From Chitiniphilus shinanonensis DSM 23277 (lineage in GTDB: Bacteria; Pseudomonadota; Gammaproteobacteria; Burkholderiales; Chitinibacteraceae): a DNA stretch of 64,000 nt. Under the pieces are notes generated by a model, which was not told the DNA's origin, did not search any database, and was given only the letters and a program-made list of their open reading frames with translations. Position numbers and translations under genes: made by a program. Location of the stretch: NCBI RefSeq assembly GCF_000374805.1, contig NZ_KB895335.1, positions 62,001 to 126,000 of the forward strand. Direction: 5' to 3'. Shown one piece after another: positions 9,959 through 63,892 of this stretch (position 1 is the stretch's first letter; every line of letters starts with the position of its first letter).

Positions 9959-10049
9959 GTGGCACGGGCAGCCCAATCGCTCCGGCCATTGAAAATCGCG
10001 CTATCGCCCACATTTGTTATTCCTGAAATTCACATCTCCGGGATACCCG

Positions 10050-10733
10050 ATGCCCTCTTCGCCCGCCGATCCCCTGCCCGCGCCCGCTGCCCGCGATGCC
10101 CTGTCCGCGCTGACCGACCCCATCCTGGCCGACCGGGTCGCCAGCGCGCGCCTGCCGACCAAACACGGCGAATTCGTCTCGCACGTCTATCGCTCGCGAC
10201 TGGACGGCGTGGAACACGTGGCGCTGACGCTGGGCGAACTGGACAGCCAGGACGGCGTATTGGTGCGGCTGCATTCGGAATGTCTGACCGGCGACATCTT
10301 CGGCTCGCTGCGCTGCGACTGCGGCGAGCAACTGGAGCTGGCGTTGCAGCGCATCCAGCGCGAGGGGCGCGGCGTGCTGCTCTACCTGCGCGGCCAGGAA
10401 GGGCGCGGCATCGGCATCACCCACAAGATCCGCGCCTACGCCTTGCAGGACGAGGGCCTGGACACGGTGCAGGCCAACGAAGCGCTGGGCCTGCCGGTGG
10501 ACGCGCGCAGCTACGAGGCCGCCGCCTTCATCCTGCGCGATCTCGGGCTGCGCTCGGTACGGCTGATGAGCAACAACCCGCGCAAGCTCGCCGCGCTGGA
10601 AGCCGCCGGCCTGCCGGTGCTGCGTCGCGAAGCGCACGAGATCGCCGCCAACGCCGAGAACAGCCGCTACCTCGCCACCAAGCGGCAGAAGCTGGGCCAC
10701 CTGCTGGAACTGCGGCGCCGCGGCGGCGACTGA
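10050..10733 (+). CDS. ribA: GTP cyclohydrolase II
   Basis: Protein of 227 residues converting GTP to the first pyrimidine intermediate of riboflavin synthesis. The zinc-binding segment is [15 protein letters not shown] (three cysteines) near residues 75-90, followed by [17 protein letters not shown] and the C-terminal MSNNPRKL typical of RibA. The ATG at 10050 is preferred over an in-frame TTG at 10014, because 30 residues already precede the conserved [12 protein letters not shown]; the binding site is weak either way. It stands alone, not fused to the RibB domain. No FMN-riboswitch fold was recognised upstream. Confidence 0.93.
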
Positions 10734-10943: not shown

Positions 10944-11945
10944 ATGCCCGACACCGCCGCCCCCGCTTCCGCCTTGATCGACCGCTTCGGCCGCCGCGTC
11001 AGCTACCTGCGCGTGTCGGTCACCGACCGCTGCGACCTGCGCTGCGCCTACTGCCTGCCCAAGGATTTCCACGATTACCGCGAGCCGGCCGACTGGCTCG
11101 ACTTCGACGAACTGACGCGCCTGATCGGCGCTTTCGCGCAGCTGGGCGTCGGCAGGGTGCGGCTCACCGGCGGCGAGCCGCTGCTGCGGCGCGACCTGCC
11201 CATGCTGGCACGTCGCCTCAAGGCGCTGCCCGGCCTGCACGACCTGTCGCTGTCCACCAATGGCACCCAGCTCGAACGCCACGCCGAGGCGCTCGCCCGC
11301 GCCGGCATCGACCGCGTCAACATCAGCCTCGATTCGCTGGATCGCGCCTGTATCGCCGAACTGACCGGTCGCGACACGCTGGGCGCGGTGATGGCCGGCC
11401 TGCGCGCCGCCCGTGCCGCGGGGCTGGCGCCGATCAAGCTCAACATGGTGGCATTGCGCGGGGTGAACGATCACGAGATCGAGCCGATGGCCGAGTTCTG
11501 TTTCGAGCACGGCTTCATCCTGCGCCTGATCGAAACCATGCCGATGGGCCGCACCGGACGCGATGCCCGCCACCTCGACCTGGGCCCCGTGCGCGAACGA
11601 CTGGTGACACGCTTCGGCCTCGTGCCCGAGGCGCAGGAGCTGGGCGGCGGCCCGGCGCGCTACTGGCGCAGCGCCGACGGTCGCGCCCGCATCGGCTTCA
11701 TCACGCCGATCTCGCAGCACTTCTGCGCCAGTTGCAACCGGGTACGGCTGGCGGTGGACGGCACGCTCTACCCCTGCCTGGGCGAGGAGGAACGCTTCGA
11801 GTTCCGCCCCCTGCTGCGCGGCGGCGCCAGCGACGCCGAGCTGGCCGACGCCATCCGCCTGGCCATCGAACGCAAGCCCGAACGCCATCATTTCCGCGAA
11901 GCGCCGGAGCGCATCGTGCGCTTCATGTCGCAGACCGGGGGCTGA
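10944..11945 (+). CDS. moaA: GTP 3',8-cyclase, molybdenum cofactor step 1
   Basis: Protein of 333 residues, a radical-SAM enzyme that rearranges GTP in the first step of molybdopterin synthesis with MoaC. The N-terminal cluster motif is CDLRCAYC (CxxxCxxC, residues 28-35). The C-terminal second cluster is CASCNRVRL followed by a further cysteine in YPCLGEE, and the protein ends in GG, all hallmarks of MoaA. It starts a rightward molybdenum-cofactor group with moeA 55 bases downstream and the MobA-MoaC fusion beyond. Confidence 0.97.
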   Translation: MPDTAAPASALIDRFGRRVSYLRVSVTDRCDLRCAYCLPKDFHDYREPADWLDFDELTRLIGAFAQLGVGRVRLTGGEPLLRRDLPMLARRLKALPGLHDLSLSTNGTQLERHAEALARAGIDRVNISLDSLDRACIAELTGRDTLGAVMAGLRAARAAGLAPIKLNMVALRGVNDHEIEPMAEFCFEHGFILRLIETMPMGRTGRDARHLDLGPVRERLVTRFGLVPEAQELGGGPARYWRSADGRARIGFITPISQHFCASCNRVRLAVDGTLYPCLGEEERFEFRPLLRGGASDAELADAIRLAIERKPERHHFREAPERIVRFMSQTGG

Positions 11946-11999: not shown

Positions 12000-13190
12000 A
12001 TGTTGACCGTAGACCTGGCCCTGGAACAACTGCTGGCCGCGGCGCGCCCGCTGACCGACAGCCTGACCGTGCCGCTGACCGCCGCGCGCGGTCAGGTGCT
12101 GGCCCACGCGGTGACCTCGTCCATCGACGTGCCCGCCTTCGACAACAGCGCCATGGACGGCTACGCGCTGCACGTGACCGACTTCGCCGCCGCGCCGCTG
12201 GCCGAGTTCGCGCTGACCCAGCGCATCGCCGCCGGCGACGTCGGCGCGCCGCTGGCCCCCGGCGAGGCCGCGCGCATCTTCACCGGCGCACCGCTACCCC
12301 CTGGCGCCAACGCCATCGCCATGCAGGAGGACTGCACGGTCGAGGCCGGCGCGGTGCGCGTCAGCGGGCCGTTGCGCGAAGGCCAGCACATCCGCCGCAG
12401 CGGCGAGGACGTGGCGCAAGGCACGGTGGTGCTGCCGGCCGGCACCCGCCTGCGCGCCACCGAACTGGGCCTTGCCGCCGCCATCGGCGTGGCCGAGCTG
12501 GCGGTGCTGCGCCCGTTGCGCGTGGCCCTGCTCAGCACCGGCAACGAACTGGTCGAACCGGGCGACGCACTGACGCCCGGCAAGATCTACAACAGCAACC
12601 GCTACATGCTGCGCGCGCTGCTGGAGGACCTGGGCTGCGTCGTCACCGACTACGGCATCGTCGCCGACGAGCTGGAACTGACCACCCGCCTGCTGGGCGA
12701 GGCCGCCGCCGGCAACGACGTGGTCATCTCCACCGGCGGCGTGTCGGTGGGCGAGGAGGACCACGTGCGCGCGGCCTTGCAGACCCACGAGTGGCTGGCG
12801 CTGTGGAAGATCGCCATGAAGCCCGGCAAGCCGTTCGCCTTCGGCCGCATCGGCGACGCCGACTTCATCGGCCTGCCCGGCAATCCGGTCTCCAGCTTCG
12901 CCACCTTCACCCTGCTGGTGCGGCCCTTCCTGCTGGCGCGGCTGGGCGTGAGCGAATCGCTGCCGCACCTGTGGCTGCCGGCCGGCTTCTCGCGCCCCAA
13001 GCCGATCCCGCGCCGCGAGTTCCTGCGCGTGCGCATCGAGCACGGCCACGCCGTGCCCTATGCCAACCAGAGTTCCGGCGTGCTCACCTCGGTGGTCTGG
13101 GCCGACGCCTTCGCCGTGGTGCCCGAACACAGCACGCTGGAGGAAGGCGACCCGGTGCGCATCATTCAGCTGGCGTTGCTCGAACGCTGA
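12000..13190 (+). CDS. moeA: molybdopterin molybdenumtransferase
   Basis: Protein of 396 residues that inserts molybdate into adenylated molybdopterin. Family motifs are clear: FDNSAMDGYAL near residue 52, GNELVEPG near 181, STGGVSVGEEDH near 244, MKPGKPFAFG near 275 and GLPGNPVSSF near 292. The translation start has only a weak binding site. It follows moaA closely and precedes a TIR-bounded repeat and the MobA-MoaC fusion, so the three genes form one cofactor group, possibly in two transcripts. Confidence 0.97.
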   Translation: MLTVDLALEQLLAAARPLTDSLTVPLTAARGQVLAHAVTSSIDVPAFDNSAMDGYALHVTDFAAAPLAEFALTQRIAAGDVGAPLAPGEAARIFTGAPLPPGANAIAMQEDCTVEAGAVRVSGPLREGQHIRRSGEDVAQGTVVLPAGTRLRATELGLAAAIGVAELAVLRPLRVALLSTGNELVEPGDALTPGKIYNSNRYMLRALLEDLGCVVTDYGIVADELELTTRLLGEAAAGNDVVISTGGVSVGEEDHVRAALQTHEWLALWKIAMKPGKPFAFGRIGDADFIGLPGNPVSSFATFTLLVRPFLLARLGVSESLPHLWLPAGFSRPKPIPRREFLRVRIEHGHAVPYANQSSGVLTSVVWADAFAVVPEHSTLEEGDPVRIIQLALLER

Positions 13191-13277
13191 GCGTCGCTGG
13201 CGCGCCACGCACCTCGGTGCAGGCGCCCAGCACCGACTTTGCGACAGCGCCCGCGCCAGTCGCGCACGATGTATTTG

Positions 13278-13405
13278 GAGCGGCTAACAAAACCCAGCGC
13301 AGCGGTCCTGGCAAGAAGCGCGCAACGCAGACAGGACAAGGCGTACGGCAAGTGAGGCTCGGCGCCCCCCGCGCGATGCAGCCAGGAAGGTTTTGTTAGC
13401 CGCAT
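13278..13405 (+). repeat. TIR-bounded repeat element, copy 2
   Basis: This 128-bp element has perfect 15-bp terminal inverted repeats: GCGGCTAACAAAACC at 13280-13294 and its reverse complement at 13389-13403. The interior matches the copy at 6264-6376 over CCCAGCGCAGCGGTCCTGGC and flanking blocks. It lies between moeA and the MobA-MoaC gene and, if transcribed, could fold into one long hairpin. Confidence 0.85.
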
Positions 13406-13472
13406 TTAATGCATTTATCATGGCGCCCGCGACAAGGCGGGCATCACGCCGCCAACCGATATGGGGGTGCAG

Positions 13473-14549
13473 ATGAAGATCGATGCGGTCATCCTGGCAG
13501 GCGGAAAAGGTCTGCGTATGGGCGGCGAGGACAAGGGCATGCTGCGGCTGGCCGAGCGCCCGCTGGTGCTGTGGGCCATCGACGCGTTGCAGCGGCAGAC
13601 ATTGCCGCTCGATCACATCCTGCTCTCGGCCAACCGCAATCTCGCCGAATACGCCCGCTTCGGCCAGCCGGTGCTGCACGACATCTACGAAAACTATCCC
13701 GGCCCGCTCGCCGGCATCCATACCGCGCTGCTGGCCTCGCCGGCCGAATACCTGCTGGTGGTGCCGTGCGACGTGCCCTTCCTGCCGCCCGACTTCGCCG
13801 AGCGCCTGTACCGCGGCCTGACCGAGGCCAACGCCGCGGCGGCGGTGGCGCAGAGCGAGAACGGCCGGGTGCATCCCACGCTGTGCCTGCTGCGGCGCGG
13901 CGTGCTGCTGTCGCTGATCGAGCGCATGGGCGGCTGCAACGATCACCAGCGCGGCCTGGGCGACTGGCTGTCGGCGCTGTCGCCCGCCTATGTCGAGTTC
14001 CCCGACACCGCCTTCGCCAACCTCAACACTCCCGAGGACCTCGACCAGGCCGAACGGGCCCTGGGCGACCGCGAACCACGCCTCACCCATTTCGACAGCG
14101 CCGGGCAGGCGCACATGGTCGATGTCGGCGGCAAGGACGAGACGCAACGCCTGGCCCGCGCCGAGGGCTGGCTGAGCGCCGCGCCGCAGACGCTGGCGCT
14201 GATCCGCGCCGGCGGCCACAAGAAGGGCGACGTGCTGGGCGTGGCGCGGGTGGCGGCGATCATGGGGGCGAAGAAGACCGCCGAACTGATCCCGCTGTGC
14301 CACCCGCTGCCGCTGACGCGGCTGGAAGTGGCCTTCGACGTGACCGACGACGGGGTGCGCTGCGAAGTCACGGCCGAGACGCGCGGCCGCACCGGCGTCG
14401 AGATGGAGGCACTGACCGCGGTCGGCGTGGCGCTGCTCACCGTCTACGACATGTGCAAGGCGGTGGATCGCGACATGACGCTGCACGGCGTGCGCCTGCT
14501 GGAAAAACAGGGCGGCCGCTCCGGCCACTGGCAGGCGCGGCAGCGCTGA
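13473..14549 (+). CDS. MobA-MoaC fusion: Mo-cofactor guanylyltransferase + cPMP synthase
   Basis: One uninterrupted frame of 358 residues joins two cofactor enzymes. Residues 1-190 are Mob[16 protein letters not shown] (nucleotide binding), [16 protein letters not shown] and LNTPEDL. Residues about 204-358 are a full Moa[47 protein letters not shown] and [10 protein letters not shown] followed by [11 protein letters not shown], with the catalytic lysines and aspartate in place. The linker is only about 15 residues. MoaC acts with MoaA early and MobA acts last, so the fusion joins the two ends of the pathway. Start at 13473 (GGGGG site just upstream); 13461 is an alternative. Confidence 0.95.
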
Positions 14550-14643: not shown

Positions 14644-15375
14644 ATGGAACCCGTCCGACTCTCCAAACGCATGGCCGAACTGGGCCTGTGCTCGCGCCGC
14701 GAAGCCGATGAATACATTGCTAAGGGCTGGGTGCGCGTCGACGGCGTGGTGGTGGACGTGCTCGGCAGCAAGGTGCTGCCCACCCAGCGCATCGAACTGC
14801 AACGCCAGGCCCAGGCCGCCCAGGCGCAGCGCGTCACCATCCTGATCAACAAGCCGGTCGGCTTCGTCTCCGGCCAGGCCGAAAAGGGCTACCAGCCCGC
14901 CGTGGCGCTGATCAAGCCGGACAACCACTGGACCGGCGACAAGAGCGGCACCCGCTTCTCGCGCGATCACCTGCAAGGGCTGGCGCCCGCCGGGCGGCTG
15001 GACATCGATTCGGTGGGCCTGCTGGTGCTGACCCAGGACGGCCGCGTCGCCAAGGCGCTGATCGGCGAGGATTCCGAGATCGAGAAGGAATACCTGGTGC
15101 GGGTCGCCGGCCGCCTCACCCCCGAGGGGCTGGCGCTGCTGAACCACGGCCTGTCGCTGGACGGCGAGCCGCTCAAGCCGGCCAAGGTGGGCTGGCAGAA
15201 CGAGGACCAGCTGCGCTTCGTGCTCCAGGAAGGCAAGAAGCGCCAGATCCGCCGCATGTGCGAGCTGGTGGGCCTGCGCGTGGTCGGCCTCAAGCGCATC
15301 CGCATCGGTCGCATCACCCTGGGCGATCTGCCGCAGGGCAAATGGCGCTACTTGCGGTCGGACGAAAGATTCTAG
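14644..15375 (+). CDS. RsuA/RluF-type rRNA pseudouridine synthase
   Basis: Protein of 243 residues with an N-terminal S4 RNA-binding domain (residues 5-50, [20 protein letters not shown]) and an RsuA-family catalytic domain with the nucleophile aspartate in [14 protein letters not shown] near residue 121. [10 protein letters not shown] and the C-terminal [16 protein letters not shown] are also diagnostic. The large insert [13 protein letters not shown] resembles RluF (23S U2604) more than RsuA. No separate regulation is visible. Confidence 0.9.
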
Positions 15376-15473: not shown

Positions 15474-16214
15474 ATGCGTGCCGACGTCCTGCTGGTCGAA
15501 CTGGGCCTGGCCGCCTCGCGCACGGCGGCGCAGGCGATGATCGCCGCGGGGCGCGTCAGCGCCGAAGGCCGCCCGGTGGGCAAGCCCAGCCAGCAGCTCG
15601 ACGCGGGCATGCGCATCGAGGTGGCGCCGGACGAGGCCGACCGCTTCGTCTCGCGCGGCGGCCTGAAGCTGGCCGGCGCGCTGGCGCATTGCGGGCTGGA
15701 TGCGAGCGGCTGGCTGACGCTGGACATCGGTCAATCCACTGGCGGCTTCACCGATTGCCTGCTGCAAGCCGGCGCGCGACGCGTGCTGGGGCTGGAAGTG
15801 GGTCATGGTCAGCTGCACCCGCGGCTGGCGGACGACGCCCGGGTGGCGACGCTCGAAGGCGTAAACGTGCGCCACGTGCAGCCGCAGGACCTGGCGCCGC
15901 ACCTGGACGGCCCGGTCGATGCCATCGTCGGCGACGTGTCGTTCATCTCGCTGACCCTGGTGCTGCCGGCGTTGGCCGCGCTGCTGCCGGCCGGCGGCAC
16001 GCTGCTGTTCCTGGTCAAGCCGCAGTTCGAAGTCGGCCCGCACGCCCTGGGCAAGGGCGGCATCGTGCGCGACGCCGCGCTGTATCCCCAGGTGGAAACC
16101 CGCATCCGCGCCGCCGCCGAAGCGGCGGGCTTCGCCGTGCTGGACTACTTCGACAGCCCGATCGCCGGCGGCGACGGCAACCGCGAGTTCTTCATCCATG
16201 GGCGGCGTGGGTAG
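15474..16214 (+). CDS. TlyA-family rRNA 2'-O-methyltransferase
   Basis: Protein of 246 residues with an N-terminal S4 domain (residues 1-60, ADVLLVELGLAASRTAAQAMI) and an FtsJ-type methyltransferase domain. The SAM motif is LDIGQSTGGFTDCLL (usually LDVGASTGGFTD) near residue 82, then DVSFISLTLVLPAL near 157 and FLVKPQFE near 180. TlyA proteins methylate rRNA cytidines and were first called haemolysins. No ribosome binding site is clear in the pyrimidine-rich leader. The gene converges on the ligase gene across a large inverted repeat. Confidence 0.92.
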   Translation: MRADVLLVELGLAASRTAAQAMIAAGRVSAEGRPVGKPSQQLDAGMRIEVAPDEADRFVSRGGLKLAGALAHCGLDASGWLTLDIGQSTGGFTDCLLQAGARRVLGLEVGHGQLHPRLADDARVATLEGVNVRHVQPQDLAPHLDGPVDAIVGDVSFISLTLVLPALAALLPAGGTLLFLVKPQFEVGPHALGKGGIVRDAALYPQVETRIRAAAEAAGFAVLDYFDSPIAGGDGNREFFIHGRRG

Positions 16215-63109: not shown

Positions 63110-63892
63110 TCAGTGCACGTCGCGCCAGTATTCCTTCTTCAGGAAGTAGCTGATCGGCACCAGGATGAACAGCAGGAACAACAGCACGGCGTAGCCGATC
63201 TGTTCGCGCTTCACCTTGGCCGGTTCGCCCATGTAGACCAGGTAGTTGACCAGCTCGGCGACGCGGGTGTTGTACTCGGTCTGGTCGAAACCGCCATCGT
63301 CGGCGACGCGGGTCAGCAGGCCGGGCTTTTCCAGCTTGAGCGACGTCAGATGCTGCTCTTCCTTGCCAGTCTCGTGGTTCTTCACCGTCTCGTAGACCGG
63401 CACCTGCTGGCCTTGCAGCTCCCACAGCACGTGCGGCATGCCCACCTTGTCGAACACCAGGTTGTTCCAGCCGGTGGGGCGGGAATCATCGCGGTAGAAG
63501 GTGCGCAGGTAGGTGTAGAGCCAGTCCGCGCCACGGGCGCGGGCGATCACCGACAGGTCGGGCGGCGTGGCGCCGAACCAGGCCTTGCCGTCGGCGGCGG
63601 CCATCGACACGCGCATGGGCTCGCCGATCTTGTCGGCGGCGAACATCAGGTTGGCCTTGATCTGCGCTTCGCTCAGGCCCAGGTCCTGCAGGCGGTTGTA
63701 GCGCATCGACAGCGCACCGTGACAGGACAGGCAGTAGTTGGCGAAGGTCTGGGCGCCGCGTTGCAGCGACACCGGGTCGCGCAGCAGGTTGGGTGCGCGG
63801 TCCAGGTGCACGCCGCCTTCGGAGGCCAGGGCTGCCAGCGGTGCGAGGGCGAGCGAGGCGGCCGCCAGCCATTTCTTGATATTGGATTTCAT
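63110..63892 (-). CDS. petC: cytochrome c1 of the bc1 complex
   Basis: Protein of 260 residues. Signal peptide (residues 1-23), haem motif CLSCH (Cys54, Cys57, His58), the GMPHVLWELQGQQVP segment, axial-ligand region KANLMFAADKIGEPMRVSM and a C-terminal membrane anchor (IGYAVLLFLLFILVPISYFL). It passes electrons from the Rieske protein to cytochrome c. AGGGAATGG lies before the ATG, and the upstream gene ends 11 bases earlier. Confidence 0.97.
   Translation of the reverse strand: MKSNIKKWLAAASLALAPLAALASEGGVHLDRAPNLLRDPVSLQRGAQTFANYCLSCHGALSMRYNRLQDLGLSEAQIKANLMFAADKIGEPMRVSMAAADGKAWFGATPPDLSVIARARGADWLYTYLRTFYRDDSRPTGWNNLVFDKVGMPHVLWELQGQQVPVYETVKNHETGKEEQHLTSLKLEKPGLLTRVADDGGFDQTEYNTRVAELVNYLVYMGEPAKVKREQIGYAVLLFLLFILVPISYFLKKEYWRDVH

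Follow-up and report, generated by a model that had tools for sequence, protein, structure and literature searches.

The locus described here raises the question of why a single protein should contain the enzymes that act near the beginning and at the very end of molybdenum cofactor (Moco) biosynthesis. MoaC makes cyclic pyranopterin monophosphate (cPMP) early in this pathway, MoaD/MoaE, MogA and MoeA act next, and MobA adds GMP last; because MoaC and MobA do not stand at consecutive steps, they share no intermediate that could be channelled directly from one to the other. The window analysed, a stretch of 64,000 nucleotides from the genome of Chitiniphilus shinanonensis DSM 23277, harbours a mobA~moaC fusion gene (Table 1), for which an earlier note had suggested a role as a channelling scaffold. 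The explanation that we favour, and to which we assign a probability of roughly 0.8, is that the halves act as independent, tethered enzymes, that the fusion arose by a change of frame within an operon and was inherited with equal dosage rather than channelling as its consequence, and that the MoaC half became relaxed after the arrival of a second set of cofactor genes.

The fused gene, its protein and its neighbours

Table 1. Position of the fusion gene, its parts and the flanking genes in the window
Feature	Coordinates	Strand	Basis
ribA, GTP cyclohydrolase II, upstream	10014..10733	+	TIGR00505, 240.5 bits, cut-off 205.85
moaA, GTP 3′,8-cyclase, upstream	10944..11945	+	TIGR02666, 370.5 bits, cut-off 284.05
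moeA, molybdopterin molybdotransferase, upstream	12000..13190	+	best match NF007960 (MoeA), 385 bits, below cut-off 440
moeA-mobA gap	13191..13472	.	moaD-moaE absent; present here in many relatives
mobA~moaC fusion gene	13473..14549	+	single open frame, 358 aa
MobA half, putative guanylyltransferase	13479..14048	+	residues 3-192; TIGR02665, 1e5k alignment, five checked sites present
Linker	14049..14078	+	residues 193-202; gap between domain matches; weak prediction around 200-204
MoaC half, putative cPMP synthase	14079..14534	+	residues 203-354; TIGR00581, 1ekr alignment, seven checked sites present
Pseudouridine synthase (RluF-like), downstream	14644..15375	+	TIGR00093, 126.8 bits, cut-off 109.3
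tlyA-family methyltransferase, downstream	15474..16214	+	TIGR00478, 187.2 bits, cut-off 185.8

The claim that a complete MobA and a complete MoaC are encoded in one frame is borne out, as both halves of the 358-residue product pass their curated cut-offs: the MobA half scores 164.6 bits against a cut-off of 151.85 for TIGR02665 (residues 3-190 in the profile search) and the MoaC half 198.1 bits against 141.5 for TIGR00581 (residues 204-350). The Pfam matches are PF12804 and PF01967, and the top matches among solved structures include, for MoaC, 4pyd and 1ekr and, for MobA, 1e5k; the structures used as references we take to be those of the E. coli proteins. Alignment in E. coli numbering established that the MoaC half retains the equivalents of K51, H77, E112, M113, E114, D128 and K131 (seven of seven), presumably all active-site residues, and the MobA half those of L12, R19, K25, D71 and D101 (five of five), which we take to belong to the nucleotide and metal site. 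The catalytic MoaC residues and both MobA motifs to which the earlier note had pointed are present, and moaA and moeA do adjoin the fusion, both lying upstream and both with profile matches; the linker, put by the note at about 15 residues, is nearer 10 (residues 193-202). From these alignments and profile matches we infer that the gene specifies a bifunctional protein consisting of two ordinary enzymes. The MoaC half of the window is probably still active, because, of the 66 columns conserved across the 16 rows of the outgroup, it departs at just 2, which is no more than the 2 to 5 departures seen in fusions from genomes without a second moaC.

The start at 13473 matches those of relatives, which were themselves chosen near it, and an alternative ATG at 13461 would add four residues. 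As regards a free MoaC made from an internal start, no ATG, GTG or TTG, the three codons checked, occurs in frame between residues 152 and 215, so that there is no evident internal start for a whole MoaC and this possibility was rejected.

A monomer model of the protein comprises two well-predicted domains, with 232 of the 358 residues at a pLDDT of at least 90, joined by a segment with block means of 52 and 62 over residues 201-220 and a pLDDT below 50 at residues 200-204. This is in keeping with a linker that serves as a flexible tether between independently folded halves. The same monomer model (pTM 0.57) predicts no fixed contact between MobA and MoaC, and contacts within an oligomer could still exist, the known structures of MoaC being hexameric. 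Each half would fold by itself and act as an ordinary enzyme held by a flexible tether, the MoaC half making cPMP early and the MobA half adding GMP at the end of the pathway.

With regard to the flanking genes, the window moeA passes the cut-offs of both TIGR00177 and PF00994, and an RluF-like pseudouridine synthase gene is also found 3′ of the fusion, or of moaC, in many relatives. A search of the 64 kb of the window with the MoaE and the moaD-like protein of a second locus (see below) found neither moaD nor moaE, the sole match being one of 17 residues to moaD at 63521-63571 (E 0.33). By comparison, 30 of the 37 genomes in which the fusion was found have moaE 98-194 bases 5′ of it, measured from match end to match end; the seven without an upstream moaE are C. 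shinanonensis itself (G000), G001, G002, G003 (where the contig ends), G006, G007 and G036, and in G002 moaA and moeA are gone from the fusion locus too. The moeA-mobA gap of the window also contains a MITE-like repeat at 13278-13405 with inverted ends (GAGCGGCTAACAAAACCC-type), the 15-base arm of which has 99 matches in the genome at no more than one mismatch, whereas the arm reversed as a control has 0. A comparison of 19 copies showed them to be 107-125 bases long including the arms and to have differing flanks, and the repeat folds into a long hairpin (z -2.04). The repeat was considered and rejected as the cause of the moaD-moaE loss: the sister locus L004 possesses neither the 15-base arm, searched with one variable base allowed and no mismatch, nor moaD-moaE, and the loss therefore does not need the repeat.

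Distribution and origin of the fusion

MobA and MoaC are encoded in one uninterrupted frame in 37 of the 43 genomes of the family, which we take to be the Chitinibacteraceae because the fusion proteins of G003 and G015 are identical to those of its named members Chitinolyticbacter albus and Chitinibacter sp. GC72. Among the six non-fused genomes, mobA and moaC overlap in tandem in G018 and G026 and lie apart in G016 and G024, G010 gave no match, and G027, with 6% contamination, gave fragments only. The possibility that an assembly or sequencing frameshift has joined two genes, on which the earlier note would have abandoned the fusion, could draw on the observation that mobA and moaC of some unfused relatives overlap in different frames; it is, however, ruled out by the occurrence of the same uninterrupted frame across 37 of 43 genomes, and its probability is negligible.

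Outside the family the fusion was found in few genomes. A sample of the order (399 genomes, query P0001, E 1e-66) returned 16 genomes, of which 12 belong to the family and carry the fusion, G095 has a tandem pair with stops between the genes and three have MoaC alone. In a sample of the class (369 genomes, E 1e-62) 230 genomes passed and only G000 spans both halves among the matches listed, while in a sample of the phylum (398 genomes, E 1e-84) G000 is the sole one of four passing genomes to do so; weaker fusions could fall below the thresholds of all three samples. A scan of named genomes found MobA in the open frame of MoaC in five of the best 80 loci, to be read as examples and not as frequencies. 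These five loci (L033, L034, L035, L037 and L042) belong to Chitinolyticbacter albus, Chitinibacter sp. GC72, two Pseudomonas and a MAG, the fusion protein of the MAG and that of G031 differing at 11 of 375 residues; a further locus among the 80, L036, is a mobA-moaC tandem with a stop between the genes. The search for other proteins with MobA followed by MoaC, and the trees, which the earlier note had recommended, thereby located the arrangement family-wide and in two Pseudomonas. Taken together, the samples indicate that the fusion is usual in Chitinibacteraceae and seems rare elsewhere.

Several relatives retain what may be the precursor arrangement. A 4-base overlap between the stop of mobA and the start of moaC is seen in G018, in G026 and in the second copy of G002, and one of 13 bases in the second mobA-moaC copies of G000 and G001, moaC being in another frame in each instance; in G048 and G095, both outside the family, mobA lies directly 5′ of moaC. 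Because unfused relatives carry such overlapping tandems, a small frame change in an overlapping mobA-moaC pair is the likely origin of the fusion. The ancestral operon would have been moaA-moeA-moaD-moaE-mobA-moaC, with a few bases shared by mobA and moaC, and a slight change of frame in this pair would have joined mobA to moaC in the past of the family, whereafter the fusion would have been kept by inheritance, ensuring equal dosage and not channelling. In genus g8, which comprises two overlapping tandems and one fusion, the pattern fits either fusion or fission, and a MoaC tree of 57 rows, built without the extra G011 and G020 fusions, unites the MoaC of the split genomes with that of the fused G009 (support 100/97).

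The MobA tree (49 rows; this tree, the MoaC tree and the rate tests described below are without the six fused genomes G788-G793) placed the intact fusions of G011 and G020 apart from the other fusions and beside those of Pseudomonas, and outgroup rows fall among the fused rows. A single clade of the other fused rows and the g8 rows (33 in all) is not present in the best tree and is not rejected (p-AU 0.261), and neither is such a clade with the intact fusions of G011 and G020 added to it (p-AU 0.125). Their separate placement hints at either a second origin or a replaced MobA half. When compared with each other, these two intact fusions (L031 and L120) are 93% identical in their MoaC halves and 61% identical in their MobA halves, which suggests a replaced MobA half.

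In G016 and G024 the DNA flanking the MobA half of the G007 fusion is conserved on either side, and the half itself is missing. Here moaC stands alone (L129:4737-5201 and L130:4697-5158), followed by RluF and TlyA, and another mobA is found elsewhere, adjoining moaA and moaE; G007 retains both the fusion and a separate mobA beside moaA/moaE. These two genomes thus appear to represent the loss of a redundant MobA half, a direction suggested by comparison of the loci.

The second cofactor set and the fate of the fused MoaC half

The earlier note had asked whether the genome possesses separate mobA and moaC copies, and such copies do exist on contig 24 of C. shinanonensis, which counts against the scaffold that the note proposed. 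This second stretch also carries moaA, moeA and mobB, together with matches to the gamma, delta and beta subunits of nitrate reductase, and NarG is probably represented by a molybdopterin oxidoreductase whose 1283-residue open frame lies past the gamma subunit, at a distance of approximately 4 kb. A moaD-like gene at this locus, without an NCBIfam match at E 1e-20, was named from its position, its likeness to the gene of relatives and the Gly-Gly end expected of a MoaD. At both loci moeA scores under the MoeA equivalog cut-off and over that of TIGR00177. As the window is devoid of moaD-moaE and the sole moaE found in the genome is at the second locus, the window locus is an incomplete pathway set that needs the second locus for MoaE at the least. 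The second locus further encodes, between the nitrate reductase gamma gene and moaA, a protein with a CBM5/12 chitin-binding module (L113:16088-16939). In the genus of C. shinanonensis the second set sits in a nitrate-reductase island that was apparently acquired, moaD-moaE are missing at the window locus and constraint on the fused MoaC appears to have weakened, while MobA stayed conserved.

A second moaC is present in G000, G001, G002, G003 and G013, and in G011 and G020, which have extra fusions. On one fixed topology, the MoaC/MobA branch-length ratio was 2.69 in the clades with a second moaC (7 rows) as compared to 0.65 elsewhere (24 rows), giving a ratio of ratios of 4.03 (interval 3.00-6.71, 60 column bootstraps) in tests which left out the intact fusions of G011 and G020 and in which the shift rests on three clades; for genus g2 alone the value of 1.44 (interval 0.97-2.80) is not clear. 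In agreement with this, dN(MoaC)/dN(MobA) was 2.17, 2.24 and 3.12 in g1, 1.90 in g2 and 2.13 for the extra copies of g10, these being the five within-genus pairs with a second moaC, as compared to a median of 0.59 (range 0.10-1.43) for 251 non-independent pairs without one. The latter were drawn from 23 fusions of genera 3, 4, 5, 7, 8, 9 and 11, with G007 left out and 2 of 253 pairs dropped for a MobA dN of 0.02 or less. The rise is uneven: ratios are raised on the branch common to G000 and G001 (3.15), in G001 (5.98) and in G002 (5.39), the terminal branch of the window protein stands at 0.95, and no rise was observed at the G013 tip (0.72) or on the stems of g2 (1.03), g1 (0.27) and g1 plus g2 (0.08). 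By these sequence comparisons, the fused MoaC half of genomes with a second moaC therefore tends to evolve, relative to MobA, at about four times the pace seen elsewhere. Within each of two g2 genomes, the fused MoaC half and the standalone moaC share 95.0 and 94.2% DNA identity (L005/L116 and L007/L135), as compared to approximately 84% between the two genomes, a pattern of gene conversion or late copying.

In certain genomes the MoaC half has decayed. The fused MoaC of the congener G002 carries K51R and E112A, and in the extra fusions of G011 and G020 the equivalents of K51, H77, D128 and K131 are gone, the MoaC rows of these fusions being partial in the residue check and complete in a separate alignment. 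Such halves should not be annotated as working cPMP synthases. The extra fusions (L117:9927-10955 and L118:9504-10532) precede RluF and TlyA, as in the window, and the intact fusion of the same genomes sits elsewhere, adjoining moeA and moaA.

These decayed copies bear on the possibility that the fusion is turning into a MobA whose MoaC tail is non-catalytic and retained for oligomerisation or stability. The tail of the extra G011 and G020 fusions remains an open frame despite the loss of catalytic residues, with change highest at third positions (0.48 as compared to 0.22 at second positions; dN 0.291, dS 0.99), and is predicted to retain the MoaC-like order of strands and helices over residues 213-329 (block pLDDT 82-97); a structural role is possible given this codon-position bias and predicted fold. 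However, 26 of the 28 alignment rows behind the model came from other fusions, which biases it toward the MoaC fold, the weak constraint may be a remnant of older selection, and the MoaC residues of the window protein are intact. We consider this explanation improbable. It is likewise doubtful, on the same sequences, that after gain of a second moaC the fused MoaC repeatedly turns into a dead but folded tail which MobA still needs, perhaps as a MoaC-type oligomer.

The same genomes weigh on the scaffold, according to which the fusion would gather early and late enzymes, raise their local concentration and channel intermediates. Its long conservation within one family and its operon neighbours, moaA and moeA, joined by moaE in 30 of 37 genomes, are what such a scaffold would lead one to expect. 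Against it, the halves have no common intermediate in the pathway as generally understood, the window locus is without moaD-moaE, several genomes that carry a duplicate show decay or absence of the redundant half, two g8 members have separate overlapping genes, and the monomer model is without confident domain packing. On these grounds we regard the channelling scaffold of the earlier note as very unlikely. The decay of MoaC, and the absence of MobA, in genomes with a duplicate instead make the fusion look like a frozen accident of neighbouring genes. A presumed equal dosage combined with chance retention needs the fewest assumptions, albeit that the persistence of the fusion in most of the family is compatible with a selected benefit as well. 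As single-copy, duplicated, decayed and absent states occur within one family, the series allows the purpose of a gene fusion to be tested in nature and separates a need for both activities from a need for the fusion, and it cautions that pathway channelling cannot be read from a fusion alone.

Relation to known fusions

Among Moco pathway fusions, MOCS1 (MoaA-MoaC), gephyrin/Cnx1 (MogA-MoeA) and MoaX (MoaD-MoaE) are generally known to join neighbouring steps or subunits, unlike the window fusion. The statement of the earlier note that known fusions mostly join neighbouring steps overlooks the NCBIfam models for MoaC/MoaB, MoaC/MOSC and MoaC/MobA proteins. NF002947 (PRK03604, MoaC/MoaB) and NF011069 (PRK14499, MoaC/MOSC) combine MoaC with another Moco protein, as in the window, but with a different partner domain, and the window protein scores 197.1 and 175.2, below their cut-offs of 285 and 457. 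Both partners, MoaB and MOSC, are non-adjacent or accessory in the pathway. NF011070 (PRK14500), a putative bifunctional MoaC/MobA, unites the same two enzymes as the window fusion in the reverse order, MoaC occupying model positions 7-160 and MobA 170-350. Membership of the window protein in NF011070 was rejected owing to a score of 148.2 bits, as compared to a cut-off of 606, and the opposite domain order. In Archaea, MoaC-MoaE and MoaC-MoaB fusions have been reported and frameshifts in conserved gene blocks suggested (PMC11237513); like the window fusion these join MoaC to downstream pathway enzymes, and no MobA partner is named in the accessible part of that report. The available portion of a description of a Corynebacterium operon gives mobA and moaC as separate genes. 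A description of a MobA-MoaC fusion was not found in the literature searched, which included accessible parts of PMC2700814, PMC11237513 and PMC6147048 and lay mostly outside subscription journals. Since NCBIfam has one in the opposite order, the MoaC/MobA fusion as such is known, and what is new is the MobA-first order and its family-wide occurrence.

The closest parallels are the fusions of Pseudomonas sp. A-1 and P. sagittaria (L037 and L042), which, like the window protein, have the order MobA-MoaC in one frame, pass both cut-offs and are 45 and 44% identical to it. Both lie outside the main fused group in the two trees, their MoaC beside second-copy MoaC rows and their MobA beside the MobA halves of the intact G011 and G020 fusions.
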